A stretch of 64,000 nt of DNA from Aedes albopictus. Taxonomy: Eukaryota > Arthropoda > Insecta > Diptera > Culicidae. The position numbers were made by a program, and so were the translations under genes. A model generated the notes under the pieces. It saw only the letters and a program-made list of their open reading frames with translations. It was not told the DNA's origin and ran no database searches. Location: the NCBI RefSeq assembly GCF_035046485.1, contig NC_085137.1, forward strand, positions 2,519,977 through 2,583,976, in the 5' to 3' direction. Positions 2,714 through 55,067 of this stretch are shown piece after piece. How positions within the stretch are numbered: the stretch's first letter is position 1; each line of letters starts with the position of its first letter.

Positions 2714-3657
2714 CTTCCTGCTTTTTCATAGACCTAAATAATTAACTTTTGAAATGACTGACTTTTTCTCTTCTGGATCTGGATTAAAAGAAATACGTGT
2801 TTTGTTGTGCACTTCAACACGATGACAAACTAATGGAGTGCGTTCACAGATGAAGGGGAAAATTACTACACGCCCATTGCAAATGCGTGTAAGTGGGCTA
2901 AGTAACCATTTATGCATTGGTATATCAAACAGCCGAAAAATGGGTAGCTTTTGAACATTTTGATGAGAACCATGAAAACAGCTGCTTATGCAGCATCGTG
3001 ATATAAAGAATTTCACATTGCTCATTTGTGATTTAATTAAGGCTCGTGGAACGGATCTGGTGTGATGGTTAGAACACTTGACTATCACGCCGAGGACCTG
3101 GGATCGAATCCCACTCCCGACAAAACTCACAAAATGTGGGGTTTTCCTTCGGAAGGGAAGTAAAGCGTGGGTCCCGAGATGAACTAGCCTAGGGCTGAAA
3201 ATCTCGTTAATACAGATAAACAAAAAAAAAAAATTAAGGCTCAAGAAATCACAATTCAATCATGTAACAGCTCTTGAAAAGCAGTATTTCCGCTCAAAAT
3301 CACAATGCTGTGTTTGAAAATGATTTAACTGATTTGCTGTTTTTGAGTAGTTCCTGTACTTCATCTCAAGACTTGAATCAAGGAACCTAAAAATGGGTAG
3401 ATTTACAGCTTCGTGTATACGTGACAGTTGGTGCGCAATGTTTACAGTCGGCTTCGCGAGATTTTTATTTCGGTGAATCGAAATCAGGCAGGACTGCAAA
3501 AATTTGCAAATTTTATCATGCGTAGATAGTAGTTTAATTTGAAATATGGGCCTCCTCCTGTTTTGAGAAAATAATGTAGCGCAGCATCGTATATATAAGT
3601 GATGACCAAGGTTTTAGATAAGTATCAAGTAAATAGCTATCAATTAGAAGAGCAGCA
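2714..3657. promoter_or_regulatory. Divergent intergenic region between ERLEC1 and beta4GalT7
   Basis: About 0.94 kb separates the start codons of two head-to-head genes, so both promoters must lie here unless upstream 5'UTR exons exist. A full-length SINE occupies 3046-3231, leaving about 330 bp on the ERLEC1 side and 425 bp on the beta4GalT7 side. No clear TATA box can be assigned. Confidence 0.5.
3046..3231 (+). mobile_element. Full-length tRNA-derived SINE
   Basis: The head carries RNA polymerase III promoter boxes: an A-box-like TGGTGTGATGGTTAGAAC and a B-box-like GGATCGAATCCCAC. The tail ends in an A-rich run. Perfect 11-bp target duplications AATTAAGGCTC flank it (3035-3045 and 3232-3242). 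The 3' half is the same as the truncated copy at 729-830. The Pol III head lies between two divergent host promoters. Confidence 0.9.
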
Positions 3658-4721
3658 ATGAACATACACAATTCGATGTATGTGCGCTTCATAGGCATTA
3701 TCGTGTTGGCTGCTGTAGGAGTCATATTCCTGATCTCAAGTCTTCCCATTTCCGGTAAGTTATTGCACATTGATAAGGCCCACGTTACGAAACGTAAATT
3801 TCTACTACTTGTAGATACATGTAAATGCGAGAATCCAGTCGAACGGGATATACAACATGAACAGTTCCATCGCAGCTTCAAGGAGCTATCCCCATCGGAT
3901 AAACACAAACTAGCGATTCTGGTTCCGTTCCGGGACAGGTTCGATGAGCTCTTGCGATTTGCACCACACATATCAAGGTTTTTGAATCGTCAACGTGTAC
4001 CGTTTCACATTTTTGTACTGAATCAGAACGATCGCTATCGCTTCAATCGAGCATCGCTGATCAACGCCGGGTTTCTTTTGGTGAAGGATCAATACGATTA
4101 CATTGCTATGCACGACGTCGACTTACTTCCGTTGAACGATAATCTCAAGTACGAGTACCCTAAAAATGGACCACTGCACATCTCCGGTCCAGAATTTCAC
4201 CCGAAATATCACTACGCCACGTTCATAGGAGGAATCTTGCTTCTAAAAATCGAACACTATCAATTGCTCAATGGAATGTCCAACAAGTACTGGGGATGGG
4301 GTCTGGAGGACGACGAATTCTACGTGCGCATTAAAGAGGCAGGCCTGGAGGTGCACCGACCGAGGAACATTACAAGTGGACCGGATGATACGTTCTTGTA
4401 AGTAAATCTTCCGATGCTAAATAGCCGCCGACAACTGATTCTTGTTCTTTTTCCTTCAGGCATATTCATGACCGTTTGCACCGCAGGAGGGACACGGCCA
4501 AATGTTTTAATCAAAGGGAAGTGACACGACGAAGAGATCGTGAAACGGGACTCAATACCCTTCGGTACAGTCTAGATAGTCGACGGGAGCTGACGATTGA
4601 CGATGTGCCCGTGACCGTATTGAACTTAAACCTAGAGTGTGATAAATCTCAAACTCCCTGGTGCGAATGTGATAGCAAAGGGGATGCAAAATCTCGACTC
4701 GAAACGAAATCAAAATCTTGA
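3658..4721 (+). CDS. B4GALT7: Beta-1,4-galactosyltransferase 7 (xylosylprotein 4-beta-galactosyltransferase)
   Basis: Exon 1 is 3658-4397 and exon 2 is 4460-4721, split by a 62-bp GT-AG intron (TTCTT/GTAAGT ... CCTTCAG/G). The product has 333 residues. Residues about 9-30 form a single membrane anchor after a short cytosolic N-terminus, as in type II Golgi enzymes. The catalytic domain shows LVPFRDR (89-95), [10 protein letters not shown] with the metal-binding DVD (151-160), the hallmark WGWGLEDDE (212-220), and a C-terminal HIHD metal-binding segment directly after the intron. Family role: it transfers the first galactose onto xylose of the glycosaminoglycan linker in the Golgi and so is needed for heparan and chondroitin sulfate proteoglycans. 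Length and motifs fit a complete, functional gene. The ATG at 3658 is preceded by GCAGCA and gives the anchor its expected position. Confidence 0.93.
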
Positions 4722-4929: not shown

Positions 4930-7900
4930 TTGAACCGGTTGTCTATCAACAAGTGTGAACTGCCCTGATGGATATGAAAACCCGTCCTTCGAACGATGTC
5001 CACTCTTCCCGGGAAGGGAATTTCGTAGAAAATGTCCCATATGGGAAATTACAAGCAATTGTAAGATCACTTGGAGCAAAGATAATTTTGTCCCAATTCA
5101 CCAAAAGTGGAAACAACGAGGTGTGTGTTGATGTGCGGTTCACAGGAGTTTCCTCTAGTAGACCGAGTACCCGTAGACGGTAAGTGCAAGAAAGGGCTTC
5201 TTGTTTGAGATGAATGTGTAGTGGAGCAACGTCAAAGAGAACTTCGAGCGCTGCCGTGGGAGTTGAAGAGAACGTTCCAGACATCGCCATTAAGCACATC
5301 CTTTGCAGATGACCCAACTTTGATTGGATCGTTCTTATTGCACACTTTTGCCACCACACAAGACATCCATAGGCCAATATTGGCCGAACAACAGTTGTGT
5401 CGATCCATTTGATATACTTGGGTTTTAGACTCCATTGCAGGCATTGCCCGAAGGCCATACAAGCTTTCTTGATTCTGAACTCAACATGAGGTGTCCAGGA
5501 AAGCTTGGAATCAAGAATGACTCCAACGTACTTTACCTGTTCAGTCACATTGATTTCAGAATCAAAGAGACGTAAAGTTCGGTTTCGCTTTTCCGTGAAA
5601 AGAACAATAGATGTTTTACTCGGATTAACCGAAAGGCCATATTGGCGACACCAACCCTCAACTACCTGAAGGGCACTTTGCATCAGGTTGAAAAGGGTGC
5701 TGATACACATACCAACTAACAATGCTAGGTAGTCGTCGGCAAAACCATAAGTAGGAGAACCGCTATTATTGAGTTGCCTCAACAGCGTATCTGCTACGAG
5801 ATTCCACAAAAGCGGTGATAAGACTCCCCCTTGGGGGCATACACAAACACTCAATTTCCTAATCCCTGCTAGACGCAATGTCAAGAAGAAATATCGGTTT
5901 TTGGGCATTTGATGAATCCAATTGGAAATCATTGGAGATATACCATGACTCCGTGCAGCTTCCAATGTGGCATCGAAAGGCACATTGTCAAAGGCACCCT
6001 CGATATCTAAGAGAACACCCAAACAAGATTGCTTTTAAGCGAATGCTTTCTCGATATCGTTAACAACCTTGTGTAAAAGAGTCACAGTGGACTTACATCT
6101 GGTAGCCATGTTGGTTCACATGAAGAGGCACGGTGGCCAGATGAACATCACGGATGTGAGGATCCACAATGCGTTCTAAGCATTTCAGAAGAAAAGAGGT
6201 CAAACTGATAGGTCTAAAACTCTTTGCTTCTTCATACGACTCACGACCCACTTTCGGAATAAACTTCACAGTAATATCCCGCCAGGATTTGGGAATACAC
6301 CCTGTAGCAAAACTGCAAACAAATATTTTTTTTCAAAACATGTTTGAAACAATCAAATCCCTTTTGAAGCAAACTAGGATAAATCCCATCTGTTCCAGGA
6401 GATTTGAAAGGAGCAAAGCTATTAAGTGCCCACTCGCCCCGATTCTATAGTTACAATACTCCGAGCCGAAGCCAGGGAATCATAACTACAAGAAAAGCCA
6501 TCAGGTTCATCCGAAGATGTAATATCTACACATCCAGGGAAGTGTGTGCTGAATAAGCATTCCAGAACTTCCTCATCAGAGGAAGTCAGATCGCCATTTG
6601 GCAAACAGAGTTCGTTCACTCGGAAATCCTTAGATTTCGCAAGAATTTTGTTTAACCGACTGACTTCACTCAAGCTGGAAACATTTGTACAAAGGTTTTT
6701 CCAGCCGGATCGTTCAGCAGACCGGAGAGCTTTCCTGTATGCCTTGCGAGCCGATCTGAAAGCCTCCGAACCAGCCGAACGTCGTCTGTTCCAACTCTTT
6801 CTACATTGTTTTCTGATTTTCACCAGATCAAAATTCCACCAAGGGGTTCCTTTTGTGATCTTCACAGACATGCTTCTTCAAAAGCTTCCATGATGAAGGT
6901 CGTTGTAGTATCAACGGCATCATCTAAATCACTTGGAGTATCCATGAAATTTGGCCGCAACCAAATCAGTAAAAAGATCTCGAGGATTTCTGAAACGCAA
7001 TGTTTGCGAAGTAACATTTAAATGTTCAAACAAGATGTAGCGATGGTCAGATAAAGATTCATCATCTGACACATGCCAATTGGTCAGCTCGTGACTAATT
7101 CTACTAGAGCAAAGCGTTATGTCTAACACTTCCTCTCTAGCAGATACCATGAAGGTTGGGCGGTTGCCTATGTTAAGTAATGCAAGATCTTCAGTACTCC
7201 ATCAAACTGGAACCTCTCAAGTTAATGTCTGAGCTGCCCCAGATGATATGGTGAGCATTTGCATCACTGGCAACAATTAGCGGAATGCCTTTTGAAGTGC
7301 AGTATGCGATGACTTGTTTGAAAGCATCCGTAGGGGATGGTTCATCATGTGGTACATACACCGAACAAAAGACGTATAGCACCGACATCTCTGGTGGTTT
7401 GTTCAGAGATGAGTGTAGCAACTATTGCGTTGTTGACAAGCACACAGGCTCGAGGCATGGCACGCGAGTTTGCCATTTCACGTTTACTGAAAGTAGCAAA
7501 CACCGGGTTCACAAGGTTTCCTAGATAGAAAGTCCCCTTACGAAAGTAAGGTCCTTGTACCAAGGCCATTTGGCTGTACCATTTTGCATAAGTCTGCAAA
7601 GATTGATCGTTGCTGTTCTTTTATGCTGAAGATTGATCTGAGCTATCCTAACCGTAGCCACTACCCAAACTAGGTAAGAATAAACTCTTCGCAATAACAG
7701 CACAACAAAGAACAACAGCAATAAAACCAGATCGGTATCGATTGGAAAACGCCAAAGGCGAGGATACACAGAATACACTGTGCGAAACCATGTAGGTTAA
7801 TCAATTAACAACATCTTCATAATCCCGCCCTTATTTAGCCTCAAGTGAGACTAAAGAAGGGCAGCTGATTGTCTCGGAGAAACACAAGGTCTACTGCACC

Positions 7901-8159
7901 ATTGCTCCGGTTAGCGCAGTAAGGGTAATATACTGTGGAGGGCGCCCTGGCACACACTAGCGCCACGAACGACTCCAGGGAACAACATTATGAATAAGTG
8001 GGCGTGAGATGCTAAAGCTTCCGTGTACGTACTTGCATGTACACGCCCCCAATGATGTTTTAATGTTTCTGTGAATCGTTGGGGGCGTTTCAACCATGTC
8101 GCCTGCGACAGGGTGGGAGCTGTCTGTCTTGTTATTAGCCGTCTTCGGTTTTAGGCAGG
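4930..8159 (-). pseudogene. LOA-like non-LTR retrotransposon, decayed, RNase H part missing
   Basis: Read on the minus strand from about 8110 down: a possible ORF1 remnant (8271-7957), an endonuclease start with RIAQINLQHKR (about 7670), the APE-type motifs SDANAHHIIWGS (about 7280) and SDHRYILFEH (about 7050), a linker region (6871-6422), then reverse transcriptase 6022-4946. The RT part reads GVLLDIEGAFDNV (motif A), PQGGVLSPLLWNLVAD, and FADDYLALLVG (catalytic FADD), followed by a thumb that matches the plus-strand copy at the window start. Several frameshifts split it into separate frames. The 3' end lacks RNase H and the zinc knuckle, and stops abruptly near 4930, close behind beta4GalT7. 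The Ty3-type element at 8160-14369 was inserted into its 5' region. Confidence 0.82.
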
Positions 8160-8309
8160 TGTGGTGATCTATATTATGAATGATACCATGTGGTATATGT
8201 GTTGAACTAGTGTGGGTGGCTGCACTAGCGAACGAACGATCCAACCACGAATAGCCGGCACCACTCGTCATTCTATCGTGCAGGCCTGACTAGATCGGAC
8301 GACATCACA
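8160..8309 (+). repeat. 5' LTR (150 bp)
   Basis: Starts TGTGGTGATC and ends CATCACA, with TG...CA ends. It is identical to 14220-14369. No obvious TATA box or AATAAA is visible, so the promoter may be an initiator type. Confidence 0.93.
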
Positions 8310-8311
8310 CG

Positions 8312-8325
8312 TGGCGACGAGATAA
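8312..8325 (+). promoter_or_regulatory. tRNA primer binding site
   Basis: Two bases after the LTR the sequence is TGGCGACGAGATAA. It starts with TGG, the complement of a tRNA CCA end. The second LTR element in this window has TGGCGACGAGG at the same 2-base offset, so the two probably use the same tRNA. The tRNA species was not identified. Confidence 0.7.
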
Positions 8326-9871
8326 ATTGGAGAAACGCGTTGAATTCTTTTCAAAGTAAATTAAGTGGTCAAGTTTGTATTAACAGCAGGTAATGAATTG
8401 AAAATTAAATCCGCGATGAGAAATATCATTCAAAATTAGAAAACAAATCGCGCCGTAGTCTGCCATTGATAAATTTGAAGCGTGACGCGAGTGAAAGGGT
8501 GCTCTACAAATGAAAAATGTGCAACCCACGCCGATGGGGGTAGAAAAGAATTTTGGATGGTGAACAGTGAAATTATGGGAAGGTTAATGTGATCACAGAA
8601 ATTGGTGGAGGAAACTAGTGATGGATGAAAGAGGAAATATGCCCTGGCAGAAAAGTGCACGGTGATGGGGATGAAAATTTTGAGAATGTGCATACGACGC
8701 GCGGCAGCCATTTTTTCATCATGCTGGGGGGACGCGCCCGCGGATGAAGAAAAAAACGAGCATCGAACGGGGCGAACAGTGATAGTGAAAGAAAACCGAA
8801 TATTCTGGTGTGGGTGATGAATGAAGCGCCGCATAGCATGCGGCGAATGGTGGTGGTGTGAATGGAAGAAATGATGATGGATGGTATGATCATTAGATCA
8901 TTAACGGCCAAGTGGTTTGCATTCAAAGTGTGGGGAAAAAAAGAGGCTGTTATCGTGTGTGGCAAGAACGAGATTTAGTGTTAGTGAGATTATGATGATT
9001 GAAAATCATGTGTGACAGCGCGGCACACGATCGGCTGTCGAGCTGATAAAGGTCATAATCATCGCACCGGATTCCTTGCTTCATGTTGGGGCCCAAATTA
9101 TGGTAATTTGTCTATGATTGGGGGCAGCAAAGGTATGTTATTATATTATATATTCAAAACAGTAAAAGCTAGCACTCTAATGGTTGCAAAGTGCTGTGTA
9201 CATCCAACCATTAATCCTATTTACCAAAGAAAATGGAAAAGAGAACCACCCTGTATTTTCCTATTTGAATCCATCAGTTATGTTCTCGCATGTCCGGAGC
9301 TCAATGATCATTTGAACTTGTATTGGTGGGCTGATCAACTTTCTTTTTATTTTGGTGTGATAGTAACTAATTTTTCTACTGGTGTGATTGGTCATTCATG
9401 CACGTATTATGAGTTTTCGGGTAGTGTGCTAATCTGAGTAATAAATTAGCAGCAGACGACTTATCGAGAATGCCGCTGGCACTGTGATTAAATTCATTGA
9501 GAGTGCGTAATGCACTGTGATTAAATTCACTGAGAGCGTATGATACGCTGTGATTAAATTCACTAATGCCGTTGGCACTGTGATTAAATTCACTGAGAGC
9601 GTTTAAAACGCTGTGATTAAATTCACTGAGAGTGCGCAATGCACTGTGATTAAATTCACTAAGAGCGTGTGATACGCTGTGTTAAATCCACCATAATGAA
9701 AGTGTATATTGTTAGAGTAAGTTGGTTGAAAATGTTTGTAGCAATATTAAATAACCACGTGTCAAGGCAGACTACAGCGCGATTAATATGAAACAATAGC
9801 CAATTTTAGTGCACATGAGATAAAAGTTGAAATGGGAAAGATGATCACACATTTATTTCTAACAGGCAATC
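8326..9871 (+). promoter_or_regulatory. Long untranslated leader with a possible intron
   Basis: The leader holds many short ATG frames before the gag start, which would hinder scanning. A strong donor-like AAAG/GTATGT stands at 9132/9133 and a good acceptor TTTATTTCTAACAG ends at 9865, six bases before the gag ATG. Removing 9133-9865 would delete 733 bases, including the hairpin array at 9471-9678. The splice sites are seen; their use is inference. Confidence 0.45.
9471..9691 (+). repeat. Tandem array of seven short palindromes in the leader
   Basis: A 33-bp unit (one spacing is 30) repeats seven times. Each unit has a short inverted repeat followed by a near-constant GTGATTAAATTCACT spacer. 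The palindromes fall into three classes: TGCC/GGCA (9471 and 9567), AGTGC/GCACT (9502 and 9631) and AGCGT/ACGCT (9535, 9598, 9664). Both arms change together between classes while the spacer stays the same. The spacer also has GTGA/TCAC ends. Because all spacings are multiples of three, the minus strand is open and reads repeated LSEFNHS, probably a by-product. Confidence 0.85.
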
Positions 9872-10708
9872 ATGGCAAACGAAGAAGTGGTTTTTCAAAC
9901 CATGTCCTTCTTCAGCCCAGCGTCGTATAATTTACCTATGTTCAAGTTCTCGCACTTACCCGCAACGGAGGTAAGAACCGCTTGGACATCGTGGATAAGA
10001 TGGTTTGACAACGTTATGTTAGCGACCAACATTTTGGAAAGCCACAGCCGTAAAGCGCAGATGCTTGCTATGGGAGGCATGGAGTTGCAATCTGTCTTCT
10101 ATGGCATTCCGGGGGCTGATATTGACGGATCAGATGGAAGGGACCCCTATATTGTGGCCAAGGAAAAACTGACGGCACATTTTGCTCCAAAACAACACTC
10201 CAGTTTTGAGAGATTTCAATTCTGGACTATGACGCAAGACAATGATGAGCCGATTGAGAAATTTCTTCTCAGGGTTCAGCAAAAGGCGGATAAATGCTCA
10301 TTTGGACAAACTGAGCTTGAATGTCGTCAAACGGCCATCATCGATAAAATAATCCAGAACGCGCCGGACGATCTGCGTCGTAAGTTATTGGAACAAGAAG
10401 TATTGACGTTGGATACTTGTACCAAAATCGTTAATGCGCATCAATCTGTCAGTTACCAAGCCGCCCAAATGAACTCTAAACCAAAGCCAATCGCGGATGT
10501 TCACCGTTTAATTGCGCATACACAAAGGACACCATATTACAAGAACTCAGGGATCCCAGCCTATAAAGAAAAATGCTCTCGATGCGGTCGTTTCCGACAT
10601 CGGACATCTGAAAAATGCCCAGCAGCGGATAAAAAGTGCCACGGTTGCGGAAATACGGGTCATTTCCAATCGATGTGTAAGACACCAGGACGAAATGTAA
10701 GGAACTAA
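9872..10708 (+). CDS. gag: Gag (unspliced product, 278 residues)
   Basis: The ATG at 9872 follows CAATC and opens the longest frame after the leader. The C-terminal 45 residues carry two nucleocapsid zinc knuckles: CSRCGRFRHRTSEKC (C-x2-C-x4-H-x5-C, slightly long) and CHGCGNTGHFQSMC (canonical CCHC). The N-terminal part is a capsid-like helical domain of the Ty3/Gypsy type without recognisable enzymes. Gag forms the particle and packages genomic RNA. The last three codons and the TAA stop (10706-10708) lie inside the proposed intron 10697-10793, so an unspliced RNA ends here and a spliced one reads on into pol. Confidence 0.9.
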   Translation: MANEEVVFQTMSFFSPASYNLPMFKFSHLPATEVRTAWTSWIRWFDNVMLATNILESHSRKAQMLAMGGMELQSVFYGIPGADIDGSDGRDPYIVAKEKLTAHFAPKQHSSFERFQFWTMTQDNDEPIEKFLLRVQQKADKCSFGQTELECRQTAIIDKIIQNAPDDLRRKLLEQEVLTLDTCTKIVNAHQSVSYQAAQMNSKPKPIADVHRLIAHTQRTPYYKNSGIPAYKEKCSRCGRFRHRTSEKCPAADKKCHGCGNTGHFQSMCKTPGRNVRN

Positions 10709-13700
10709 AATAAGTTTTTTTTAATGGTAAAAAAAATATATAAGTGTATAATTGGGGGTTGTTTTTTCCTTTCTTTAATTTGTTAATGTTCAGTCATTGA
10801 AACGAAAACGTTCACCGCAACGATACCAACAAATACCACAGCATAAAAGGTTCAGAAGCGTTAGGAATGTTGAGTTGACCGATGAAAGAGAGGATACGGA
10901 AGAATTTTCAGTCTACAAAATCAACAACGAAAACGATGAGCTACTGAAGTGTCGCGTTGGGGGAGTCACTATTGAAATGTTAATTGATTCAGGATCTGCG
11001 TACAACCTAATAGACGATCAAACGTGGGAATATATGAAGCTGAACAAGGCAGTCTATTTCTCGGAAAGAAGTGACAGGTCTAAGAAGTTCATGGCTTATG
11101 GGCGAATACCGTTGGAGTTGGTAACCGTGTTTGACGCAGTTATCGAAGTACACGATGAGGATGATATCATATCAGCCAGAACAACATTCTACGTGATCCG
11201 AGGCGGGCAACAAGCCTTGTTGGGAAAAATCACGGCTCGTGAACTTGGTCTGTTACGAGTCGGACTACCTAGCTCCTTCAAAGAAAACGTATGCCAAGTC
11301 AAACAAACAGAAGCATTCCCCAAAATCAAAGATTTCCAGCTGGTCCTTCCAATCGATAAAAACGTGACCCCAGTAATTCAGCCATTACGACGCTGTCCGG
11401 TACCTTTGCTGGAGCAAGTGAAAAGAAAGCTGGATGATCTGCTAGCGATGGGTATAATCGAACGAGTGGAAAAACCGTCATCTTGGGTGTCACCATTAGT
11501 GCCCATTCTTAAAGACAATGGTGAACTACGTCTTTGCATAGATATGCGACGCGCCAATCAAGCAATTCAGCGTTTAAATCATCCACTGCCAATCTTTGAG
11601 AACATACTCCCGATGTTCAATGGAGCGAAATTCTTCACTACGTTGGACATCAAGCAAGCATTCCACCAAGTAGAACTGGCGGAAGAAAGTCGTGAAATCA
11701 CGACGTTTGTCACCAATTGGGGCCTTTATCGTTACACCAGATTACTTTTCGGTGTTAACTACGCCCCCGAATTCTTCCAGAACCTCATGGAGAGTATTTT
11801 GTCGGAATGTCCTAACACCGTTGTTTTCATTGACGATATCATGATCTGGGGAGCGACAGAGAAAGAACATGACGAAGCAGTAAGAAAAACATTGGCCGTT
11901 CTGAAGAGTTTTGGAATCATGTTAAACATGCAGAAGTGTAAGTTCAAACAAGAAGAAACAACATTTCTTGGACACAAGTTCTCTGAAAAGGGAGTTCTTC
12001 CGGCTGACTCAAAAGTTCGATCCATCATGCAGTTCAGAGCACCTCAGAGCAAGGAAGAATTGAGAAGTTTTCTGGGACTTGTAACTTACGTTGCAAAATT
12101 TATTCCAAACCTGGCAACTGAAAACCACTCCCTAAGAGAACTACTCAAGGACGCGACACCATTTGAATGGCGATCTACCCATCAACGATCATTCGAAACA
12201 CTGAAACAACACATGAGCAACCTACAAAATTTGGGCTATTTCGATCCTAAGGATGAGACATTGCTTGTTACTGATGCATCTGGCGTTGGGCTTGGGGCGG
12301 TGCTGATACAGGTAAAAAGTGATCAGCCACGTGTAATAAGTTACGCATCAAGAAGTCTCTCTGAAACAGAGAAGCGATACCCACCAATTGAAAAAGAAGC
12401 GTTGGGTATAGTGTGGGCAGTTGAGAGGTTTAAGGATTACCTTCTCGGAATCTCTTTCACTGTTGAAACTGACCACCGCCCACTGGAAGTTCTTTTTACT
12501 ACAAAATCACGCCCAACAGCTCGCATAGAAAGGTGGATGCTGCGCTTGCAGTCGTTCAACTTCGCGGTCGTGTACAGGAAAGGCTCTACAAACATTGCCG
12601 ACCCTCTGTCTCGAATGGCATCACATGTGGAAGACAACTGGCAGGAGGAATCGGAAGTCTACATCCGCCGTTTAGCATCTACTACCTTAGCTATGCTTGT
12701 GGATGATTCGTGGAGCGAAAACTTTGACGATGAAACGGAAATCTCGATCAGGACAATTCAAGAAACAGCTGCTGTCGATATCTCGGAAGTTGTTGGAGCT
12801 ACGGAAAAGGACGAAGAAATGCAAGCTATCAAACTGGCAGTAATGGAAGAGAATTGGACGTCAGAACTCGTGAAACCCTATGCAGCATTTCGACACGAAT
12901 TATCATTCGTCAATGGACTCATAATGCGAGGAACAAAACTTGTGATTCCGTCTGCTTTACGAAGTAGGATGTTAGTACTTGCTCACGAAGGACATCCTGG
13001 CCAGACGATCATGAAGCGTAGGTTGAGAGATCGCTGCTGGTGGCCTAAGATGGACGCCTGTGTATCAAAAACATGTGACAGTTGTGAAGGTTGTCGCTTG
13101 GTACAAATGGCTGATCCGCCGGAGCCAATGCAACGAAGGGCGTTGCCGGACAAGCCTTGGGTAGACATCGCCATAGATTTTCTGGGTCCTTTGCCAACAG
13201 GAGAGTATATATTGGTGGTAATCGATTACTTCAGCAGGTATCTTTCGTTATTCTTACTTATTAATAATATTTTGCCTTTATTGAGAAATCTTGTTTGTTT
13301 ATAGGTATTTATGTTTGGAGATTATGGCTAGTATTACAGCGAAGGAAACCATAAAGCGGCTGATGAAAATATTCAGCATCTGGGGAGTGCCACGTACTTT
13401 GACACTCGATAATGCCAAGCAATTTGTATCCACAGAATTTCAAGAATTCTGTAGCACAAAAGGAATCCATCTGAATCACACTTCTCCTTATTGGCCGCAA
13501 GCTAATGGAGAAGTGGAGAGACAAAATCGGTCACTTCTCAAGCGTTTGAAGATTGCTAATGCTCTCTATGGTGACTGGAAAGTGGAAATGAACCAGTATC
13601 TTGAAATGTACAACAACACTTCACATTCAACAACCGGGAAAGCTCCAAGCGAGCTTTTACAAAATCGAAAGCTGCGCTTCAAGTTCCCGGATCCAGATGA

Positions 13701-14097
13701 CCTAGGTACCGCTGTAACATCAACTGACTATGCAGACCAAGATGCAACTCAAAAACTGAAAGGAAAGATAGGAGAAGACAGGAGAAGGAAAGCTAAATCG
13801 AGTGACATCATCTCAGGAGATATGGTTCTAATGAAGAACCTCCATCCATCAAACAAACTCTCTACCAATTTCCTAGCGGAGAAATTCGTAGTAGAGAATC
13901 GCAATGGGTCAAAGGTTCGGGTTCGATCAACGGATACTGGAAAGAGCTACGACAGGAACGTGGCTCACTTGAAAAAGGTTTCCGCTCAGTCTGAAAATGA
14001 TGAGTCTGACGAAACCCAGGGTCATCAGGCTCAGCCCATCGGGGAACGTCGATATTCTGAGCGTATCCGCAAACCGCGTGTAAGATTTGAGGCTTAG
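9872..14097 (+). CDS. pol: Gag-Pol (protease, RT, RNase H, integrase) read through two introns
   Basis: Coding exons 9872-10696, 10794-13237 and 13305-14097 give 1354 codons including TAG with both junctions in frame (phase 0 and phase 2). Approximate residues: Gag 1-275; aspartic protease DSGSAYNLID near 340; RT with LDIKQAFHQV and catalytic FIDDIM near 620; RNase H VTDASG near 768; integrase zinc domain HEGHPGQ...CDSC near 1005-1040; integrase core with Asp in VDIAIDFLG (about 1067), Asp in LTLDNAKQF (about 1123) and Glu in NGEVERQ (about 1157); basic C-terminus. The pol frame has no ATG near its start, which agrees with expression by splicing from gag. Intron 2 interrupts the integrase core right after VVIDYFS. 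It is mag- or K02A2.6-like by general look, but the lineage was not tested. Confidence 0.85.
10697..10793 (+). other. Proposed intron 1 between gag and pol (97 bp)
   Basis: Donor AAT/GTAAGG and acceptor TTAATGTTCAG/TCA, with a T-rich tract (TTTTTTCCTTTCTTTAATTTG) before the acceptor. Removal joins gag codon 275 to the pol frame in phase 0. If retained, translation meets TAA after three intron codons. The body is more AT-rich than the exons on either side. Confidence 0.8.
13238..13304 (+). other. Proposed intron 2 inside the integrase core (67 bp)
   Basis: Donor AGCAG/GTATCT and acceptor TTTGTTTATAG/GTATTT, with an AT-rich body containing possible branch sites. Splicing completes an AGG codon and restores the continuous integrase core. 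If retained, the frame ends at TAG (13302-13304), whose AG is the splice acceptor itself, giving a Pol without integrase core. The 6-bp AGGTAT occurs at both boundaries (13236-13241 and 13303-13308). Confidence 0.82.
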
Positions 14098-14209
14098 GTA
14101 AGGTATTTGCAGCTGACATTTATGTACCAGTTACTTAAGGTAAGAGATATATACCATAATTAAATAACAATTAAATAACAATCTAATGTCTATGAAATTA
14201 TCTTATAAT

Positions 14210-14219
14210 GGAAAGGGGA
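14210..14219 (+). promoter_or_regulatory. Polypurine tract
   Basis: GGAAAGGGGA abuts the 3' LTR directly, the expected site of plus-strand priming. Confidence 0.85.
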
Positions 14220-14369
14220 TGTGGTGATCTATATTATGAATGATACCATGTGGTATATGTGTTGAACTAGTGTGGGTGGCTGCACTAGCGAACGAACGAT
14301 CCAACCACGAATAGCCGGCACCACTCGTCATTCTATCGTGCAGGCCTGACTAGATCGGACGACATCACA
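14220..14369 (+). repeat. 3' LTR (150 bp)
   Basis: Identical to the 5' LTR at 8160-8309, followed by the target duplication GCAGG at 14370-14374. Confidence 0.93.
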
Positions 14370-14864
14370 GCAGGGATTGATTTCTTTCACAATGAAGGCC
14401 CAGATCGCTTGATATATTTTGCCTATTTATTATGAACATTTGTTCACCTAATGTACATAATCGGATGAAAGTAGGTTGTTGTGATAGTAGTTCTCACTTC
14501 AGGCGTGAAACACTTTTGCGACTGAAACTACATTTTAGTTCAGGTGGTTTTGAAAAAAACTCGAAAATAAGTGATTGAACCAGAATTTTCCCAAATTAAG
14601 CAATCCTCAGAAAATTATTCAACATTTTCTAATTCGTGCTTTTAAATCACTTCTGATCAAACAACAAAATTGGCATGCTCTTTTTCACTTGATGAAACAG
14701 TTAAAACCTGGTATATCTTAAGGTAACGCTTGCGCTAAGTCGGCTTGCTGAATTTGTAAATTGCCGACAAACCATTCAACAGCTGAGATATAGTTATACT
14801 GAAACTCTGCGCTGAAACGTTGTCAAAGGGACGATCGATAAAATCCTTCTACTTATATTTTATG

Positions 14865-16453: not shown

Positions 16454-18843
16454 CTAAACTACATATTCGCGATCGCTGATCACTTTTATGCCGTGTTCCG
16501 TGAAGACAAACTTTATCATGTCATCGTAGCTTTTCGAAGGGCTGATGCGACCAGCAGATGAACTTGCTGCTGTGGTTTGACTGCTTGCCTTATTGACTGT
16601 AGCAGGAGTGCTTTGAACTGAACGGGACTTTGCTAGTTCAGCAACCGAGAGTTGTAAATCCTTTGTATTTTTCGGTTCTCTTTGTGTGGCTTTGGCTGTG
16701 CTATTGGGTGAATTTTGTTGCCGTTGCGTATCAAGTGCCGTTGTGCTCGTTTTGGTGCTTGGTTCAGAGTTGTTTGTGCGGTTTTGTGCTGAACTTGTAG
16801 TGTTACCCACCTTGTCGTCTACTATATGCTGAGAGATGGAAACTATTCCCGAGTCTGTTCCACTTGAACTGCTAGAAGTAATGGTAGAGGTTGTTATTTT
16901 AACAGCGCTCCCAGGGTGGGTCAGAAATCCCCTTGTGCCCTTCGATGACGATTTTGATTCGTTTTCGGTGCCGCAACAAAACACTCGATTTAAAGTATTG
17001 CGAGGAAAGTCCGTTTCGTCCATTGATTCCAGCGTGTTCAGAGTATTCAACTCATTTCGACACTCGACGTAGTCGTCATCAATTATGGGAGAAACGGGAG
17101 AAATGCTCATCATTTCCCCACTCGTACTGGCGGGCATAATGTACTTACTGATGAAGGTAATCCACAAACAATGCACAGACATGTGAAACGAATGAGTTTA
17201 TGACATTAGTACTGCGTTTGAAATGGAAATTAGGTCGTCACTGCATGATAAAATGGAAATGTTATGCAAAAATCACACCAAAGTAGAATGTTTAGGAAAT
17301 ATAAAGAAACTTACGTGTTGCTGGTACCGTAGAGAGCATGCTTTTTAATATATTCTATCAAATAATCATCCAGCAAATATTTCACTGACATTCCTCGGTT
17401 AAGAAGGCGACGTACGAGCGTGGAACTGACATCATTCGTTATCCAGTTGGTGACAATTGTAATGTTTCTCTGTTTGTGAAATAAGTAAGTAATGAAACTT
17501 CACTTAGTTAAAGAACTTCAGCTTTTTGAAGAAATTTGCATTTTTTTTTCTGCAAGTTTTAATAGTAGCTCTATGTTTGTGAACACTGACATTTTTTTGG
17601 AAGCTGCTTGTTTTTTTTTTCTAAGAGTTACGCAAGAAGCTCAAGGATTCTACATCATTCCCCAGAAAAATGTGTGTGAAGAAGGATGCATTAATTTCCT
17701 TCTAACCCTTCAGGACGCGCGCTGTTGTAAAAAGTAAAACACTGCCAAAAAACCTCGCTCGTCGTACACAGCGCGAGCGCGGTGCAGTTTTGATTGCTTG
17801 ATGGCGCGCGTCCTGAAAGGTTAACTAGAATTCTGGGAACTGGTGTTCAGGAGAATGTTATAAAATCTTCTATAGTTGTTCTGCTAGAAGTTTTTCAGAA
17901 CTTCAGAACAAAGTGCTGCTCTGGAAGAAACACCAGAATATACTTCCAAAAATTGTGCTGTTGCTTATGCTTTTAGCAAGCTATACACAATATATGCGTT
18001 GTTTAACATCCAAAAATACTTGAGTAATACCTGAAAAGTACCTCCACTAAAACTTCCTCATAAAAATTCGACAGAATTCGCTTCGAGTTTTGTTCCGAAC
18101 GAACACATGAACACTTACCCTATAGCGGCTCAGCAGGTCCGAGTTGAAGATAAACTGTTCGGCATTTGATCCGGCACGGGAAATTACCACAATCCCATGC
18201 TGCCCGACGATGGCTTCGATGTCCTCGTCTTTCCACAGTCCCGGCGTTGCAAAAGACTCGAGCAGGTCTGCGCCGCAAAGCAGCTTCAGCTGAACCTGGC
18301 TGGCGGTCTTTTTCAACCCTTCCGGAATCCACGACGGAATGTGCTGATCGTTTGTGCTATTCGCGTCCTTCAGGAAGGAATTAATGCAGTTCTGTAACAT
18401 AAAGGCTATAAGTCAGCATGATCACCGGTACATTCTGTGAAAACGGCAGTAATGCAAACCTGATGGTATTGGAGTGTGAGTCGTGTCCTCGTCCATTCTT
18501 CTTGCTGTGTCTCCCACTCCGAAAGCCGAATCCAGTCCGAAGATTGCAGCCCAATTTTGATCATATTACACCGGTGTGTGGCAGAAACTAAACCATTCTT
18601 GCCGTATGAATCGTGCACCGGTGAGATTATTCCTCCAACTACACTGGCTGATCCAATCTGTTCAAAATAATCTCGTGCAATTTCTGTTTGGAAAGGATGA
18701 AAAAAAAATCTACAATATTTACGTCTTATCACCGATGATGCATCATTGCACAACTTACCAAACATTCGAAAGTGCATTGGGGTTGGGGGACTGAATGAGC
18801 CGCATGCTATAAGCATGATTTTAGACGGTGATGTCATCCTCAT
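16454..18843 (-). CDS. Nmnat: Nicotinamide mononucleotide adenylyltransferase
   Basis: Five coding exons: 18843-18759, 18683-18460, 18391-18119, 17469-17315, 17147-16454, all with GT-AG borders and compatible phases, totalling 477 codons with stop. The ATG at 18843 is in frame and the first in the exon. Motifs: LIACGSFSPPTPMHFRMF (nucleotide-binding GxFxP..H), GGIISPVHDSYGKNGLVSATHR, SDWIRLSEWETQQEEWTRT, LLCGADLLESF, and NDVSSTLVRRLLNRG (SxTxxR). Family role: joins NMN or nicotinate mononucleotide with ATP to make NAD or its acid form; fly Nmnat also protects axons and acts as a chaperone. The last exon adds about 230 residues rich in Ser, Thr and Asn, probably disordered, then a conserved-looking end SYDDMIKFVFTEHGIKVIS. 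Fly Nmnat makes isoforms that differ at the C-terminus, so other 3' exons may exist. A MITE sits in intron 3. Confidence 0.93.
17703..17823. mobile_element. MITE in Nmnat intron 3
   Basis: 121 bp bounded by 20-bp terminal inverted repeats TAACCCTTCAGGACGCGCGC (left) and TAACCTTTCAGGACGCGCGC (right, complement) with TA at both ends, as for Tc1/mariner-type MITEs. It is markedly richer in CpG than the intron around it. Confidence 0.8.
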
Positions 18844-18849
18844 TTGCGC

Positions 18850-19060
18850 CAAATTTTAGTTTCCCTTGATGCTCACTGAAAAGTAGTATTCCTGAGCACT
18901 TAATATACTGGAATTTACACAATTTCTGCCACAATTTAGAACTTTTTCTGAACCACTAGTCCATTACTCACGAAGTGCAGAAAAATTTTCGCGACATCGA
19001 TAAAAAAAATGTTTTGACAGTCAAACTAACAAGCCGCTGTTTACTGTGCGGTGATTTACA
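18850..19060 (-). promoter_or_regulatory. Probable Nmnat 5'UTR and promoter region
   Basis: The stretch upstream of the start codon is not obviously repetitive. A near match to the insect DRE motif (TTTATCGATGTC on the minus strand) lies at about 18993-19004, a common element of housekeeping promoters. The transcription start was not located. Confidence 0.35.
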
Positions 19061-38369: not shown

Positions 38370-38869
38370 NNNNNNNNNNNNNNNNNNNNNNNNNNNNNNN
38401 NNNNNNNNNNNNNNNNNNNNNNNNNNNNNNNNNNNNNNNNNNNNNNNNNNNNNNNNNNNNNNNNNNNNNNNNNNNNNNNNNNNNNNNNNNNNNNNNNNNN
38501 NNNNNNNNNNNNNNNNNNNNNNNNNNNNNNNNNNNNNNNNNNNNNNNNNNNNNNNNNNNNNNNNNNNNNNNNNNNNNNNNNNNNNNNNNNNNNNNNNNNN
38601 NNNNNNNNNNNNNNNNNNNNNNNNNNNNNNNNNNNNNNNNNNNNNNNNNNNNNNNNNNNNNNNNNNNNNNNNNNNNNNNNNNNNNNNNNNNNNNNNNNNN
38701 NNNNNNNNNNNNNNNNNNNNNNNNNNNNNNNNNNNNNNNNNNNNNNNNNNNNNNNNNNNNNNNNNNNNNNNNNNNNNNNNNNNNNNNNNNNNNNNNNNNN
38801 NNNNNNNNNNNNNNNNNNNNNNNNNNNNNNNNNNNNNNNNNNNNNNNNNNNNNNNNNNNNNNNNNNNNN
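38370..38869. other. Assembly gap of exactly 500 N
   Basis: All bases are N. Predicted frames across it are meaningless. Exactly 500 suggests a placeholder length, not a measured one. Confidence 0.99.
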
Positions 38870-41636
38870 TAGTTTGAAGAATGGTAAATTTCTATGCGGG
38901 CAGTGATGGTAGTAAAATTTAAAAAAATCATGGTCGCACATTTGAAAGGTGTCGGAAAGGTGTCGAAAGGTGATTTTGGTGTGCGAAATGCGTGTTTCAA
39001 ACAAGGTGTCAGAGTTTCCAACCCCTTGATACTTACCTATAGGATGTGAGAGGATAATGGCACACCTTGATATGGAACCACAAGTTGCCCCAATCAACAA
39101 CTCCAGGCGACTCCACGTTTAAGCTGCTTTAGTTCAAACTTTTTTTTATAGTATGTGTACTCACGATCGGTTTCGAATTATCTACGAAATTTGTGTTTAA
39201 GAAATAAATATTGCGGATACCATAACTTTCGAAATTTATTGTTCAAAATAAATATTGAAAAGAGCTTCTCATACGTGGAGTAAATGGAATCAATAATGCA
39301 TACCCAGGCTTGACAGAAACTCCCTCTCGAAGAAAATGAGGAAGCAATTTCGGCGATTTTCTGAGGAGTGAAAATAAAACTCAGAAATCACAGCGCAAAT
39401 CCTCAACAGCACCGAGCGCGAGTTTGCCGCGCAGCGAGAAGTTCGTCCAACACTCATAATTGCTTGTTGTGATTCTCACGTCCACTCACACTCAAAAAGC
39501 TCTCGCGAGTTCCACTCCCATACAAAGAAAGACTCTCGAGGCGAAAATCGCACTCAAAAACCCGAAATAATCATCGGCTCTTTTTTCGTTCCCCTCTTCC
39601 TCGCTCAGTTCTTATTGCCTCTCTGTTTGGGGTTCGTTCGCTCACTCGCGACGAGGCAAAAACAAAACACCGCTTTAGAGCAACATTAACGGCGGCTACT
39701 ATTCGAGCAACCCGCGCAGCGCTACCATTTTGACTTAATCACCCTTTTCCACACCGGTAGCAACCAAATTAGTCACCTTGATTCGTATCAGGAGGGCTGT
39801 CATATTCCCATATAATTTTTAGCAGCGCAACTGTCCCGCTACTATATTTGGTCACCCACCCATAGCGCTACTATTTTGCGAGCGCATCCAGCAGCGACCG
39901 GTAAAGTTTGCTGCAATGATGGAGGGCTGCCAAACGGGGTATAGAAGCGCACCGTTAAAGGTGCTCTTAGGATGAGTAGGTAATACTAGCGTTCTCACGC
40001 CATAGATATGGGAGTTAGAACATGATGTCCTGGGTGATAATTGGTGGGAAAACACTGCCCTACAAGTTTGCCGAACATCACATTGTAGTAACAAGCTTCT
40101 GAATTGGGTTACAGACAAATGAATTTAAAGATTGCCAGGTGAGTGAAAGCATCCTTGCTACCAACATGTTTTCAAATTTTGTTTTGTACTATCTCATCAC
40201 ACATATTTTAATCAGCGTAGCCCCAAAATAAACAAAATCCTGTGCTTTAGATCAATATTCGTTCCTGATACGCTCTTTATCAAGTGCCCAGGAGCGATAA
40301 CATCATACAAAATGGCATCGAATCTGTCGAAAGCCATCCAGGTTCTATAAGATGCTGAGCATTTCTTACAAAAATAGAAAACCTGGTGAAATATAATTCA
40401 AAAAGGCAAAAGTTCAGCAGATTTTCACCTGATTCATAAATTGTGCCATACCCGTTTTTTCCCCACAATTTATGAATCAGGTGTTATGTTCAATTTTTAT
40501 GTGAAATCGTCATTCCACAACACATTGCCTTCATAAACATGCTGATTCATCATGTTACAGTAGGTTACTGTTCGATTTTTCCTCAAAAAGCTGTACAGAA
40601 ACGTCTAAATTGTCATTTTTTTCTTATCAACAACAGCCATGTGTCTTACAAAAGCGACTAAAAAATGGCAACAATGACAGCATAAAAATCACGCCGACAA
40701 TTTTTGTTGATTTCGGAAACAAAATCGGATTCCGCGCTGTAACAACTGTTGTGACCTTCGATATACACAAGGATTTCGCCTTTGAAAAACCAAAGAATTC
40801 ATATTTCTCGGTAATATTTTTCTTCAGCATTTACAGATACTAATGGCCACATGAACTGTAGACGATTTATGGTATGGATCATACGACCTGAGGTCTGACT
40901 TGTGATATTTGGCAGTTATTTGAAAAGATTGACGATAGATCTTATCAACAGCTGCCAAGCAACACATTCCAGACAGACATCAGAGTGTTTGACTCTTATC
41001 ATAAAATGTGCATATCATTCTGGCGGCCGTTAGTGCTCGTAAATGCTGGAATAAATGTTAGCGGGAAATATAAATTCTATGGATTTTCAAAAGCGAAAAC
41101 TGCTTACAAATAACAACAAATATTATTGTATTTTTATTGTAACAACGGTTAATTTGACGCCATTCAATTAATTGTATTTGTATTGTAAGAACAATGAAAA
41201 ACATTAAGATATATTGTTTTCTTTTGAAAATTGCCCTAAAAATGTCTCATAAAAACACAATACATTCTATTGTTTTTCGCGAAAAAGTGTATGAAAATTT
41301 TCTCAAAATTTTATGGTTAAGATACATAACGACCACCATTTTTTATTGTAAAAGTGCCATTTACCATTCGCCGAATGGTATAGGACAATAGAGGAGATGG
41401 TGAATGTACTGTGCAAATTACAATACGTTTAATTGTGAATGATTTTCGAAAAAATGGTGTTGTAACAATACAATTTATCGTATTTTTATGATATTTTTTA
41501 TCAGGGTATACACATAAGAACAAAAGATTTTACATCAAAAAGATGTAATCGTATATCGGAATGAGTTAAATACATCGGGCGAATTGCATTTATTTTTTGC
41601 TGCGCACCGAAACAAAATAAAATTTATATACCGCAT
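38870..41636. other. Intergenic DNA, no recognised gene
   Basis: 39380-39720 is GC-richer with clustered CTCTCGCGAG-like sequence and could hold a regulatory or 5'UTR piece, but nothing supports a frame. A perfect 20-bp inverted repeat (CACCTGATTCATAAATTGTG) with an 18-base loop is at 40426-40483. Confidence 0.4.
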
Positions 41637-50559: not shown

Positions 50560-53500
50560 AAAATAACTGTAATTTGTAATTGTAATTTATTATCATAAAC
50601 GTAAGCCTGGCGGTATAACCATTAATCAGGTTAAGGAAATTACTGTTTAGTATTTTACAAACATTTCGAAAAATAATAACTATTACTAAGGAGGTAAGCA
50701 AGATTGACTATCCAGTAAGATGCATCATCGTCGTGCTGAAAGAGCTGACTTAAACGCATTAATAGTTGGTAGCTGCCTGGTTGCCAAGGGAAGTTGGTTC
50801 CAGTTGATTGCTCCTGCAATCATGATACTTTTCCTCTTCGATGTAGTATGGTGAGGGATCACGAAGCTACGAGCACGTTCCTGCCGTCCCTTTATCAAAT
50901 GCTGTTGTAGATAAGGCGGGAAGTTGCTGGCATATCCTTGCCAGATCATGGCCCAAAATAAAGTTTCTCACGGCAGCGGTGGTTTCTCTCCGTCTGAGGC
51001 TATAAACGAAGCGAACTGATGCCTTGAAGCAGCGATTAAGTTGATCACGAAGCGCCGCAGATAGTCCGGGATAGTAGATGACATCACAGTACGTAAAAAA
51101 TGGCAAGATTACGGCTCGAACTAGTTTCAGCTTAGTTTGAACTGACAGAACAGGTGCGAATCTTCGGAGTGTTCGCAACGTTCCGAAAACCTTAGCTGTC
51201 ACATCGTTGATATGTCCATTCCATTTCAGATCCATTCTGATTCCAAGATTCACAACGTTGCCTGCTAGATTGATGCGCTCCCCACAGAAAACGATGCTCG
51301 TTGTTGGATCAACAGCACCTTCCTTGCAGAAAATGATAGCCTGCGTCTTCTTCGGATTGGGGAAAAGAGAGTTCTGCCTGGCCCAATGCTGTATCGTTTC
51401 AAGATCGCTGTTAATGGTCGAGATGAGCTGGTCTACGTCGCGTATCGATCCGGAGATGTAGATCTGCAGATCGTCAGCGTAGAGTTGATATCTGCATCTG
51501 AGTCCAATTGGAAGGCTGTTGATGTAGAGGCTAAAAAGCAAGGCGCTCAAGCAAGAGCCTTGAGGTGTGCCGTCTACTAGTGGTCTTTGGGAAGAGGTCG
51601 AGTTTCCTATGCGTACTGCTTGCGTCCGATGCTCGAGAAACGAATGTATGAGGTCGCATGCATTGTTGGAGAAATGAAACTCCTCTCGAAGCTTCCTTTG
51701 TAGTTTTCGGTGGTTGACACAGTTAAATGCCAACGAGAAGTCGACAAGAACCATAACTGTGCACTGGTCGTTATCGAAGTGGTCGTAGATGTCGTGCGTT
51801 ACCTTTGCCAGGGCGGTCGTTGTGCTATGTCCTTTTCTATAGCCAGACTGGTTCGTTGCAAGAAGAGAATTGCCGTTCCTGTCCACGTGGTCCACAATTT
51901 GGTCGAGAAGAATCTTTTCGAGTACCTTAGATACCGCTGGGAGTACGCTAATTGGCCGAAAATCTTTGGGTTCCGTTGGACTACCTACCTTGGGTATCGG
52001 TGTAATCAGCGCACTTTTCCAAATAGCAGGGAACGTACGTGCTTCGATTATGGCGTTGTATAGATGAACCAGCACCGGCAGCACAAACGGTGCCAGCATT
52101 TTGATAAACGAGATAGGAATACCGTCAGAACCCGCAGCGTTAGTCTGGATCTCCATGATTTTTCGGGATATTTCGTTGGCCGTCGTACGTCGGAAATTGA
52201 AATTGGCTCCTCCACGGTCTGTGGTGGTGCGGTGTTCTGGCTCTTCTTCTTCCTCTCTATCGTTGATCACACGTTGATGTCCCTCACAGAAAAAGCGATT
52301 CATCTCGTTGGGATCGGCTTGGTCAAAGGAAACGTTCTTTTTGGTATTGTTATGCACGCCTTCGCGCCGGAGGTTGCTCCAAAGCTTTTTTGCTGGGAGG
52401 TCATGAGCAAAGTGCCTTTCTCCGTATCGTTTCTTCGCTGTTGAGATCAACGTTGCAGCTATATTACGCTTTCGGATATATTCGTTCCATTGGTTGTCGT
52501 GTCTTCTCCTATTAGGATTTCGAGAGTAGAGTGCATGTGCCAAGTCTCTAACCGAAATTGCTCTCTCAATTTCCGGTGTAATCCACGGTGTCCGGTCATT
52601 CCTAACAATAATAGTCCGTTCGGGGGCATGCGTGTCCATTAAATTCTGTAGTTCAGCTGTAATGAGTTCTACTTTAAGATTGACGTCGTTTGTGTTGAGG
52701 GCATTTCGAAAATCTTTGGTCTGAAAGTCTGCCTGAAGTGCAACTGCATCAATGCTACGGAAGTTCCTCACCGTAATGCGTTTAGGCGGTGTTTTTCGGA
52801 TTTTAACATCAGGAAGGAAAATTATCTCGTGATCGGAAATGCTCGACGATTTCGTTTTCGCTGCTCTTATAGACTCAGGACAGTCAGTAATAAGCAGGGT
52901 ATCGCGCCACTTGGGCGGTGGCTTCTATATTCGTCTATTTTCCACTATAACTCAGTGAATTTTGAACCAATTGACTTGAAATGTTGTACACGGGTAGATA
53001 CTATACCTATCTCACCACATTCCAAAAGTTGTGTCAATCGGTTCAAATTTGACTGAGTTATAGTGGAAAACAGACGAATATAGAAGCCACCGCCCAAGTG
53101 GCGCGATTCCCCAGATCAATGGTGGTTGAACTTCTGTCTGCAATTCTAGTCGGTGGTGTCGGCAAGATGGTTAGGCGGAAAGCGTCATGGATACGGGAAA
53201 GTGCCCTTAGATTTCCAGATGGTAGTGGAGCACTGACATTAATATTAAAGTCCCCGACTATGAATACTCGATCGAACGCAAAGTCCTGCATATCAAAAAG
53301 AAGCTTTTCATACTCACGTGCAAAGTGAGGGTTCGAGACGTTTGGATTGTACACACAATAACGATTCCGATGCTGAGGTCGTTGATTTTAACCTGTACTG
53401 CTAGATATTCAAACCTCTGATCGAGCGGAGCATCCAAATTATGTTCAGATCTGAGTACAGGGATTGCCTTCAAACCTTTCAACACGTAGAGCCCAATTCC

Positions 53501-54352: not shown

Positions 54353-55067
54353 TAAGTTTCGCACCTTTACCATATATTTTCATTTCGAATAGGTACTAGA
54401 ATAGGTTAGCCAGATGCTTTTTCCTAGTAAATATTTGTGTAGGAATAGGAATTTGCTCTCTGTTTTACATATATGTTTTTTTATTAACATGTATTCGAAT
54501 ATCGACTAATAATTGTATTGTACTCTTTCATTACAGAAACGGAGAATTCAAAAATATTCAGCTCAAATCTAGTACTTCAACGATTGTCCTATTACTAATT
54601 CATTATTTTCCTCTTTCTATCAACTGTTGCCTGCTGCAGAACTCATGCAGATATAAATATGGAACAGCTTCGAAAAGACTACCAGACCTCTTCATGCATC
54701 CCGGTATGTGGGAAAAAGACGCATCAATGAACACACGAAACTTGATGGAGAAGTATCATCGATTTATGTAAGTAAACATATCGACACTGATTTTTCATTT
54801 GGGCCTAACTGACATTTTCGAGTTCTCTTCATCGATCCTCTCTTTGTGTTATCACAGAATGTGTATTGAGTTTTCCAAAGATTTTTTGATTGAAATGCGA
54901 AGAAGACGACTACATGTTGCTATTAAAACAAAAAAAATAATGATTTTGTTTGTTTTAATCAAGTTATTAGCAGAAGAGAGAGTCGGTGAAGAGAAATCGA
55001 TCAACTCAGTTAGGCCCTTATGAAAAATCATTGTCGATATATAAAATCCTTTAACTCTAATTCCTAT
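54353..55067. other. Stretch with one possible internal exon
   Basis: Apart from the candidate at 54640-54767 no gene or repeat is recognised. Confidence 0.4.
54640..54767 (+). CDS. Possible internal exon of an unrecognised gene
   Basis: A 128-base open stretch is bounded by a pyrimidine-rich tract ending TGCCTGCTGCAG and by a consensus donor (TTTAT/GTAAGT). One frame is open throughout and includes RLPDLFMHPGMWEKDA and NTRNLMEKYHRF, which look unlike transposon proteins. No start or stop codon and no neighbouring exon were found, so it could belong to a gene spread over long introns, or be chance. No family was recognised. Confidence 0.3.

Follow-up and report, generated by a model that had tools for sequence, protein, structure and literature searches.

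Ogre/GmOgre, a Ty3/gypsy element of plants, has an intron in gag-pol and a partly spliced transcript, according to a figure legend of PMC3305785. A passage of PMC3735527 describes Ogre as splicing between open reading frames (ORFs), and copia and BARE1 (Ty1/copia) as separating Gag from Gag-Pol by splicing. Two further papers concern Cer1, a Ty3/gypsy element of Caenorhabditis elegans, which has to export unspliced RNA though its RNA is also spliced (PMC10309623) and which makes from the spliced form a nuclear protein required for this export (PMC12786077). Here we describe a Ty3/gypsy long terminal repeat (LTR) element in a window of 64,000 nucleotides (nt) from the mosquito Aedes albopictus (contig NC_085137.1 of assembly GCF_035046485.1, positions 2,519,977 to 2,583,976 of the forward strand; all coordinates below are those of the window). 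The element spans 8160-14369 on the plus strand. It appears to be young, and its gag-pol would hold two spliceosomal introns, such that unspliced RNA gives Gag and the genome, and spliced RNA gives Gag-Pol; from the sequence of the locus and its relatives we put the probability of this reading at about 0.84.

Like Ogre, the mosquito element is a Ty3/gypsy element whose gag-pol is split by an intron, and by frame arithmetic removal of the intron restores the frame. It differs from Ogre in its animal host, in its LTRs of 150 base pairs (bp; those of Ogre are long), in the place of the intron between gag and pol, where retention closes Gag three codons on, and in having a second intron, which cuts the integrase. 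Earlier studies (Neumann 2003; Steinbauerova 2008) reportedly deal, to judge by their titles, with the gag-pol intron of Ogre and its partial splicing. Foamy viruses, in which Pol is made without Gag from a spliced RNA, resemble the scheme proposed here in that Pol needs spliced RNA; the mosquito gag frame continues into pol, unlike theirs. Penelope and other retroelements also carry introns, but differ in class and in mode of copying. In copia and BARE1, according to PMC3735527, spliced RNA gives Gag and unspliced RNA gives Gag-Pol. The mosquito element would do the reverse: without its first intron gag would open into pol, so that spliced RNA would not encode Gag alone. Cer1 is likewise an animal LTR element that exports unspliced RNA, but its spliced product is not Gag-Pol. 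Among titles and the openings of abstracts, a set that mostly leaves aside subscription papers and transposon databases, we recognised no gag-pol intron in an animal LTR retrotransposon. Splicing of a gag-pol intron is thus not new in principle, given Ogre; its occurrence in an animal may be a new variant, on weak evidence of novelty.

The gag frame runs from 9872 to a TAA stop at 10706-10708, and unspliced reading adds the residues VRN after 10696. Open frames of pol are found at 10779-13304 and 13285-14097. The gag and pol frames do not overlap, the gap between them has stops in all three frames, and the first ATG of the pol frame lies at 10977, adjoining the protease active site. A first-pass annotation of this DNA had proposed that removal of 10697-10793 (intron 1) joins gag to pol in phase 0, and the frames bear this out (10696 to 10794). 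Its coordinates and GT-AG ends hold for both segments, as does its claim that the second segment (intron 2) interrupts the integrase core and can be removed in frame: by eye, the first catalytic Asp (13176-13178) lies upstream, and the second Asp (13408-13410) and the Glu (13516-13518) lie downstream. Its statement that pol has no ATG of its own holds for the region before 10977.

The GC content of the two introns is 22.7% and 22.4%, respectively, vs 45% in gag and pol; the lowest values in exons are 34.0% for any 97-nt stretch and 31.3% for any 67-nt stretch. When intron 2 was slid by −8 to +8 nt at fixed length, GT and AG occurred together only at shift 0 (1 of 17 positions). The best low-GC stretches by likelihood (10706-10753 and 13248-13316) overlap the introns, composition not giving their exact ends. 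By the tests that DNA allows, both segments qualify as introns.

In the proposed mechanism, the full-length unspliced RNA would serve both as genome and as Gag messenger RNA (mRNA), translation running three codons into intron 1 before it meets the stop. With intron 1 removed, pol would come into frame and Gag-Pol would be made; with both introns removed, this Gag-Pol would have a whole integrase. The first-pass annotation had also proposed that partly spliced RNA might supply Pol lacking integrase. Unspliced RNA would be exported from the nucleus and packaged in preference to spliced RNA, a preference proposed because 34 of 37 gag-pol borders read in related loci (described below) hold intron 1. 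We infer that splicing would then set the ratio of Gag to Gag-Pol.

The first-pass annotation had suggested comparing family copies for the presence of both introns. In a genome search that scores only its best candidates, the query 10600-10900 gave nine matches (window included), all full-length and 94-100% identical, and intron 1 was present in 9/9. The query 13100-13450 also gave nine full-length matches (window included, 95-100% identical), each with intron 2. A further eight matches, at 72-76% identity, are confined to 88-119 nt of the upstream exon, and in four of them the match stops at 13237, immediately ahead of intron 2. Some loci occur in both sets of nine, though the sets are not identical; one family locus, L004, is a contig of 1618 bases.

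Among the nine copies matched by the first query, intron 1 is 95-102 nt long, and the ten bases at either end are constant. Intron 2 was cut out of four copies (window included) and always measured 67 nt. We counted gap openings in the best aligned stretch of each of eight copies against the window, pooling counts that are not independent and excluding larger breaks. Intron 1 had 32 in 811 aligned nt, gag 1 in 6256 nt, the main pol exon none in 10667 nt and the last exon 1 in 2950 nt. Intron 2 had four mismatches and no gap in 201 aligned nt; a freely varying interior is thus seen for intron 1 only. The pooled ratio of non-synonymous to synonymous change (dN/dS) against the window was 0.04 for gag and 0.07 for the main pol exon, with no in-frame stop counted; these counts, too, are not independent, as copies share changes. 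By these measures intron 1 evolves like an intron: its length varies, and the exons hold few indels and have low dN/dS.

Paired LTRs were found in four of the eight copies whose ends were read (the window and L009-L015), namely in the window, L009, L011 and L015. Within each of these four the LTRs are identical over 148-150 bp aligned, and each has a private 5-bp target duplication (GCAGG, CTACA, GTCAT and CTTAG). The first-pass annotation had argued from identical LTRs that the introns survived the last transposition, and these copies agree with it. Identical LTRs and private duplications in four copies imply that unspliced RNA was copied repeatedly. As separate insertions, they indicate that intron 1 was carried through recent transposition in all four and intron 2 in three, L015 having lost the part that holds intron 2.

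A search of the genome with gag gave 141 matches, and the gag-pol border was read at loci L031-L064. Among L031-L052, 21 loci belong to other families; in these, GTAAGT, GTAAGA or GTAGGT comes after the end of gag, and pol resumes after AG (by eye). The 22nd locus of this series, L041, belongs to the window's own family. Intron 1 was also read at L056, L057, L058 and L064. Altogether, the border was read at 37 loci of the window and sister families (~50% gag identity or more), and 34 have intron 1; among the other three, L055 lacks exactly intron 1 and the remaining two come from a family whose gag and pol are fused in frame. Loci L053 and L054, which read as the protein P0139 at the border, are fused in DNA. 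On these readings, intron 1 was either lost in the P0139 group or arose twice. At 40-42% gag identity, gag of L059-L062 runs into pol in frame with no such segment; L063 (41%) has a GT-AG segment at the border, and from this locus intron 1 may be older than the clade. In L042, intron 1 carries an insert of ~170 nt with inverted ends, resembling a miniature inverted-repeat transposable element and absent from L043 and L044; judging from this locus, introns of these elements tolerate insertions.

Traces of splicing come from one sister family, whose three copies found among the scored candidates are L055, L056 and L057. Its intron 1 is 65 nt long (GTAAGT...ATCAG) in L056 and L057. Exactly this stretch is absent from L055, one base at the join being assignable to either side. 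On both sides of the break L055 and L057 are 99.4-99.5% identical, and the 3418 aligned nt contain a single further gap opening. The LTRs of L055 are identical over 160 aligned bp; its target duplication is likely ACTCT, in which case the LTR is 159 bp. The exact loss in so young a copy argues that L055 derives from spliced RNA. In L055, which was read except for ~1.1 kb of pol, the start of the family's second intron (at F-K/V) is kept, so its template was partly spliced. The search for intron-less copies proposed in the first-pass annotation thus found one in a sister family and, among the candidates scored, none in the window's own. This comparison indicates that, in the sister family, intron 1 is spliced at the predicted sites and spliced RNA is at times copied.

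Relatives at the protein level carry a corresponding signature. A search with the gag piece gave 58 proteins, 56 of them counted as gag-only; six without a recognised zinc knuckle were left out, and 50 remained. In 48/50 (47/49 without the window's own) a V followed by R, S, G, K or N lies 3-17 residues past the last knuckle, the exceptions being P0196 (V-I) and P0224. Such a tail is what a phase-0 donor of the form GTRAGN or GTNGGN would read. V-R or V-S (GTRAGN in phase 0) is present in 34 of the 50, V-G alone in 13. After the V, the frame of gag-only relatives ends at a median of 10 residues, and within 40 in 46 of 48. Fused gag-pol relatives number 35, of which 32 have a knuckle; 9 of the 32 have the motif and two have V-R or V-S. 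The difference gives a Fisher p of 5e-11 (window's own protein included, shared descent ignored), and in 2000 rounds with shuffled tails the motif turned up in 23 of 50 on average and never in more than 35. Gag-only and fused proteins came from searches with different length limits, and their numbers are not comparable.

In the gag tree (87 of 91 rows; midpoint root, several outer rows being long branches), one branch separates 72 rows, namely all 53 gag-only rows and 19 fused ones, from 15 rows that are all fused; its support is 94/87, just under the star of the tool. A five-row group inside the gag-only side, which includes P0139, is fused throughout. Two Logan proteins, P0125 (87% to P0185) and P0221 (83% to P0219), have gag joined to pol at the predicted site, the very site at which P0185 and P0219, their nearest gag-only relatives, run into V-R or V-G and stop. 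These two contigs may represent spliced RNA or intron-less DNA copies. Gene models of other mosquitoes (P0226 and others) join gag to pol likewise, and such models can arise by intron removal. Scans of viral_contigs and genome_contigs gave no relatives.

Several observations weigh against the proposed reading. No family copy without either intron was found among the genome candidates scored, and a search able to return spliced Gag-Pol gave no match to the start of pol above 76% among the matches listed; splicing of the window's own introns is therefore argued from sequence and from the sister family. For intron 2, no sister copy showing its removal was found, and its donor, GTATCT, is weaker than GTAAGT, the consensus. 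The last exon is under weaker constraint, with a dN/dS of 0.35 (21 non-synonymous and 17 synonymous changes, pooled). The Ae. albopictus gene model P0124 uses the expected acceptor but an upstream donor. Finally, L010, L012, L014 and L015 have parts of pol missing or interrupted, gag of L012 shows 14 gap columns and the last exon of L013 shows eight.

Damaged copies would accord with a reading in which both segments are themselves damage and a defective element is copied in trans; both segments do break the frame, and no spliced RNA was seen. Yet the segments are in all copies found, intron 1 also in other families, with splice sites kept, the interior of intron 1 free to vary and coding constraint on both sides. 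On this copy comparison we rejected damage, although several copies are damaged elsewhere, and regard it as very improbable. Pol might also be reached by frameshifting, a common strategy according to the excerpt of PMC3735527, or by stop read-through or re-initiation. These were rejected on the frame geometry described above (no overlap, stops in every frame, first pol-frame ATG at 10977), and the exact intron removal in L055, of a sister family, speaks for splicing as well; we find such routes scarcely credible. Another possibility is that the introns are real and play no part in the ratio: translated RNA would be almost fully spliced, and a separate unspliced pool would be packaged, like the RNA classes of BARE. 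The 9/9 copies with an intron at each site accord with this, as they imply that packaged RNA is nearly always unspliced; but with the gag stop lying inside intron 1, unspliced RNA is well suited to serve as Gag mRNA, and the frames of gag-only relatives end soon past the donor. We think a separate packaged pool unlikely and prefer the reading in which unspliced RNA supplies Gag and the genome, and spliced RNA supplies Gag-Pol. The interpretation of the first-pass annotation is partly upheld: both segments as introns, kept through transposition, with the exact removal in L055 in its favour. It had missed the precedent of plant Ogre.

Further introns may be present in pol of related families. 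In DNA, pol is interrupted by GT-AG segments at five positions: S-R/Y in the window family, D-T-G/K in L065, L-E/V in L066, S-R/F in L072, and F-K/V in L071, L073, L075 and, by its acceptor, L067. Six pol introns that were cut out are 57-95 nt long with 22-30% GC; the upstream exon ends in AG in 6/6 and the downstream exon starts with GT in 5/6. None of nine intron 1 cases, likewise cut out, is preceded by AG or followed by GT. These flanks suggest that the pol introns are placed at AG/GT sites, as in gain by duplication or insertion, a reading tempered by the general preference of exon flanks for AG/G. A common mobile source was considered and is unsupported: in pairwise comparison of 15 introns there was no match below E 0.07.

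As a tentative wider proposal, to which we give slightly less than even odds, a clade of mosquito Ty3/gypsy elements would use splicing as a switch between genome and enzyme mRNA and would have gained introns repeatedly at AG/GT sites of pol, with unspliced RNA packaged nearly always. The converse, that the pol introns, intron 2 among them, are old and most families have lost them, as opposed to gains family by family, is possible but doubtful. L055 demonstrates that loss through spliced RNA occurs, and in a distant fused relative, the Logan protein P0154, the frame terminates precisely at the S-R where intron 2 lies in the window family. Against old introns, the 11 loci L065-L075 (some broken) show each position in a single family or subclade, and the intron 2 site is run through by at least 112 relatives (90 of 120 listed of 363 matches; 22 of 57), some of which may be gene models or RNA contigs.

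P0154 and P0064 (Logan, longest contig 4600 each) represent a relative in which the frame ends at S-R and a second frame lies further downstream; if both come from one contig, this relative may share intron 2. In P0004, P0123, P0126 and P0136 (Logan) the frame ends, or has an in-frame insert, at D-T-G/K near the integrase C-terminus, which is the site of the DNA intron of L065. ORF starts at conserved methionines in relatives were not used as evidence of introns, as contig ends and gene callers mimic this pattern.

The features of the element are collected in Table 1. The range 9872-14097 of the first-pass annotation is right for the coding part and omitted the leader and the LTRs. LTRs, a polypurine tract and a target duplication are all present, as in Ty3/gypsy LTR retrotransposons. 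Pfam was run on four separate pieces of gag-pol. RVT_1, RT_RNaseH and Integrase_H2C2 were matched, and the domain order protease, reverse transcriptase, RNase H, integrase is that of Ty3/gypsy. The Asp_protease_2 match is weak (19.2 bits, under the cut-off of 24.3), rve scored 32.5 bits vs a cut-off of 32.6, and the gag match is weak, below its cut-off.

Table 1. Coordinates of the Ty3/gypsy element in the window
Feature	Position	Strand or side	Basis
Target-site duplication GCAGG	8155..8159	5′ side	equals 5 bp at 14370-14374
5′ LTR, 150 bp, TGT...ACA	8160..8309	+	identical to 14220-14369
Primer-binding-site-like stretch starting TGGCGACGAG, 2 nt past LTR	8312..8329	+	sequence
5′ leader tandem array, 30/33-nt units	9436..9693	+	sequence repeats
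gag exon, 275 codons, ends in phase 0	9872..10696	+	ORF; two zinc knuckles by eye
Intron 1 (predicted), 97 nt, GTAAGG...TTCAG, contains gag stop	10697..10793	+	sequence, frames, copies
pol exon: protease, reverse transcriptase, RNase H, integrase zinc finger, first catalytic Asp	10794..13237	+	Pfam
Intron 2 (predicted), 67 nt, GTATCT...TATAG, phase 2	13238..13304	+	integrase core, between S-R and Y
Last pol exon: remaining integrase and C-terminus	13305..14097	+	Pfam rve
Polypurine tract GGAAAGGGGA	14210..14219	+	sequence adjoining 3′ LTR
3′ LTR	14220..14369	+	identical to 5′ LTR over 150 bp
Target-site duplication GCAGG	14370..14374	3′ side	equals 8155-8159

The element may belong to the Mag lineage, to judge by its LTR length and leader repeats. 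Mag-lineage elements of Culex, in passages of PMC3286476, have short LTRs and mostly 5-bp duplications, some with tandem repeats in the 5′ leader; such repeats occur in three of them, and the primer transfer RNA is that for Ser, Leu or Arg. The mosquito element is like them in its short LTRs, 5-bp duplications and leader repeats, and the passages covered, 12 of 19, describe no intron inside an element.

Elsewhere in the window, a large reverse transcriptase ORF (RVT_1) of non-LTR type lies at 50867-54395 on the minus strand, with further ORFs upstream; it is presumably a long interspersed element (LINE). Another reverse transcriptase ORF (RVT_1; 4946-6034, minus strand) we likewise assume to be of LINE type. 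A host galactosyltransferase gene has an exon at 3637-4401 on the plus strand (Glyco_transf_7N and 7C). At 18406-18855 on the minus strand, an exon with a cytidylyltransferase-like match resembles, we presume, nicotinamide mononucleotide adenylyltransferase. A run of ~500 N occupies ~38370-38870.

An element copied through RNA would be expected to lose its introns; in this young family, all copies found retain them. The sister-family copy indicates both the splicing of such an intron and the copying of spliced RNA. The way in which an LTR element separates genome from message thus becomes testable in this mosquito, for which cell lines and RNA data exist, and the clade is a young system in which to study how introns are gained and lost. 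If the wider proposal is true, introns would have built up where they are not expected, in an RNA-copied element, and their gain might be followed there in nature.

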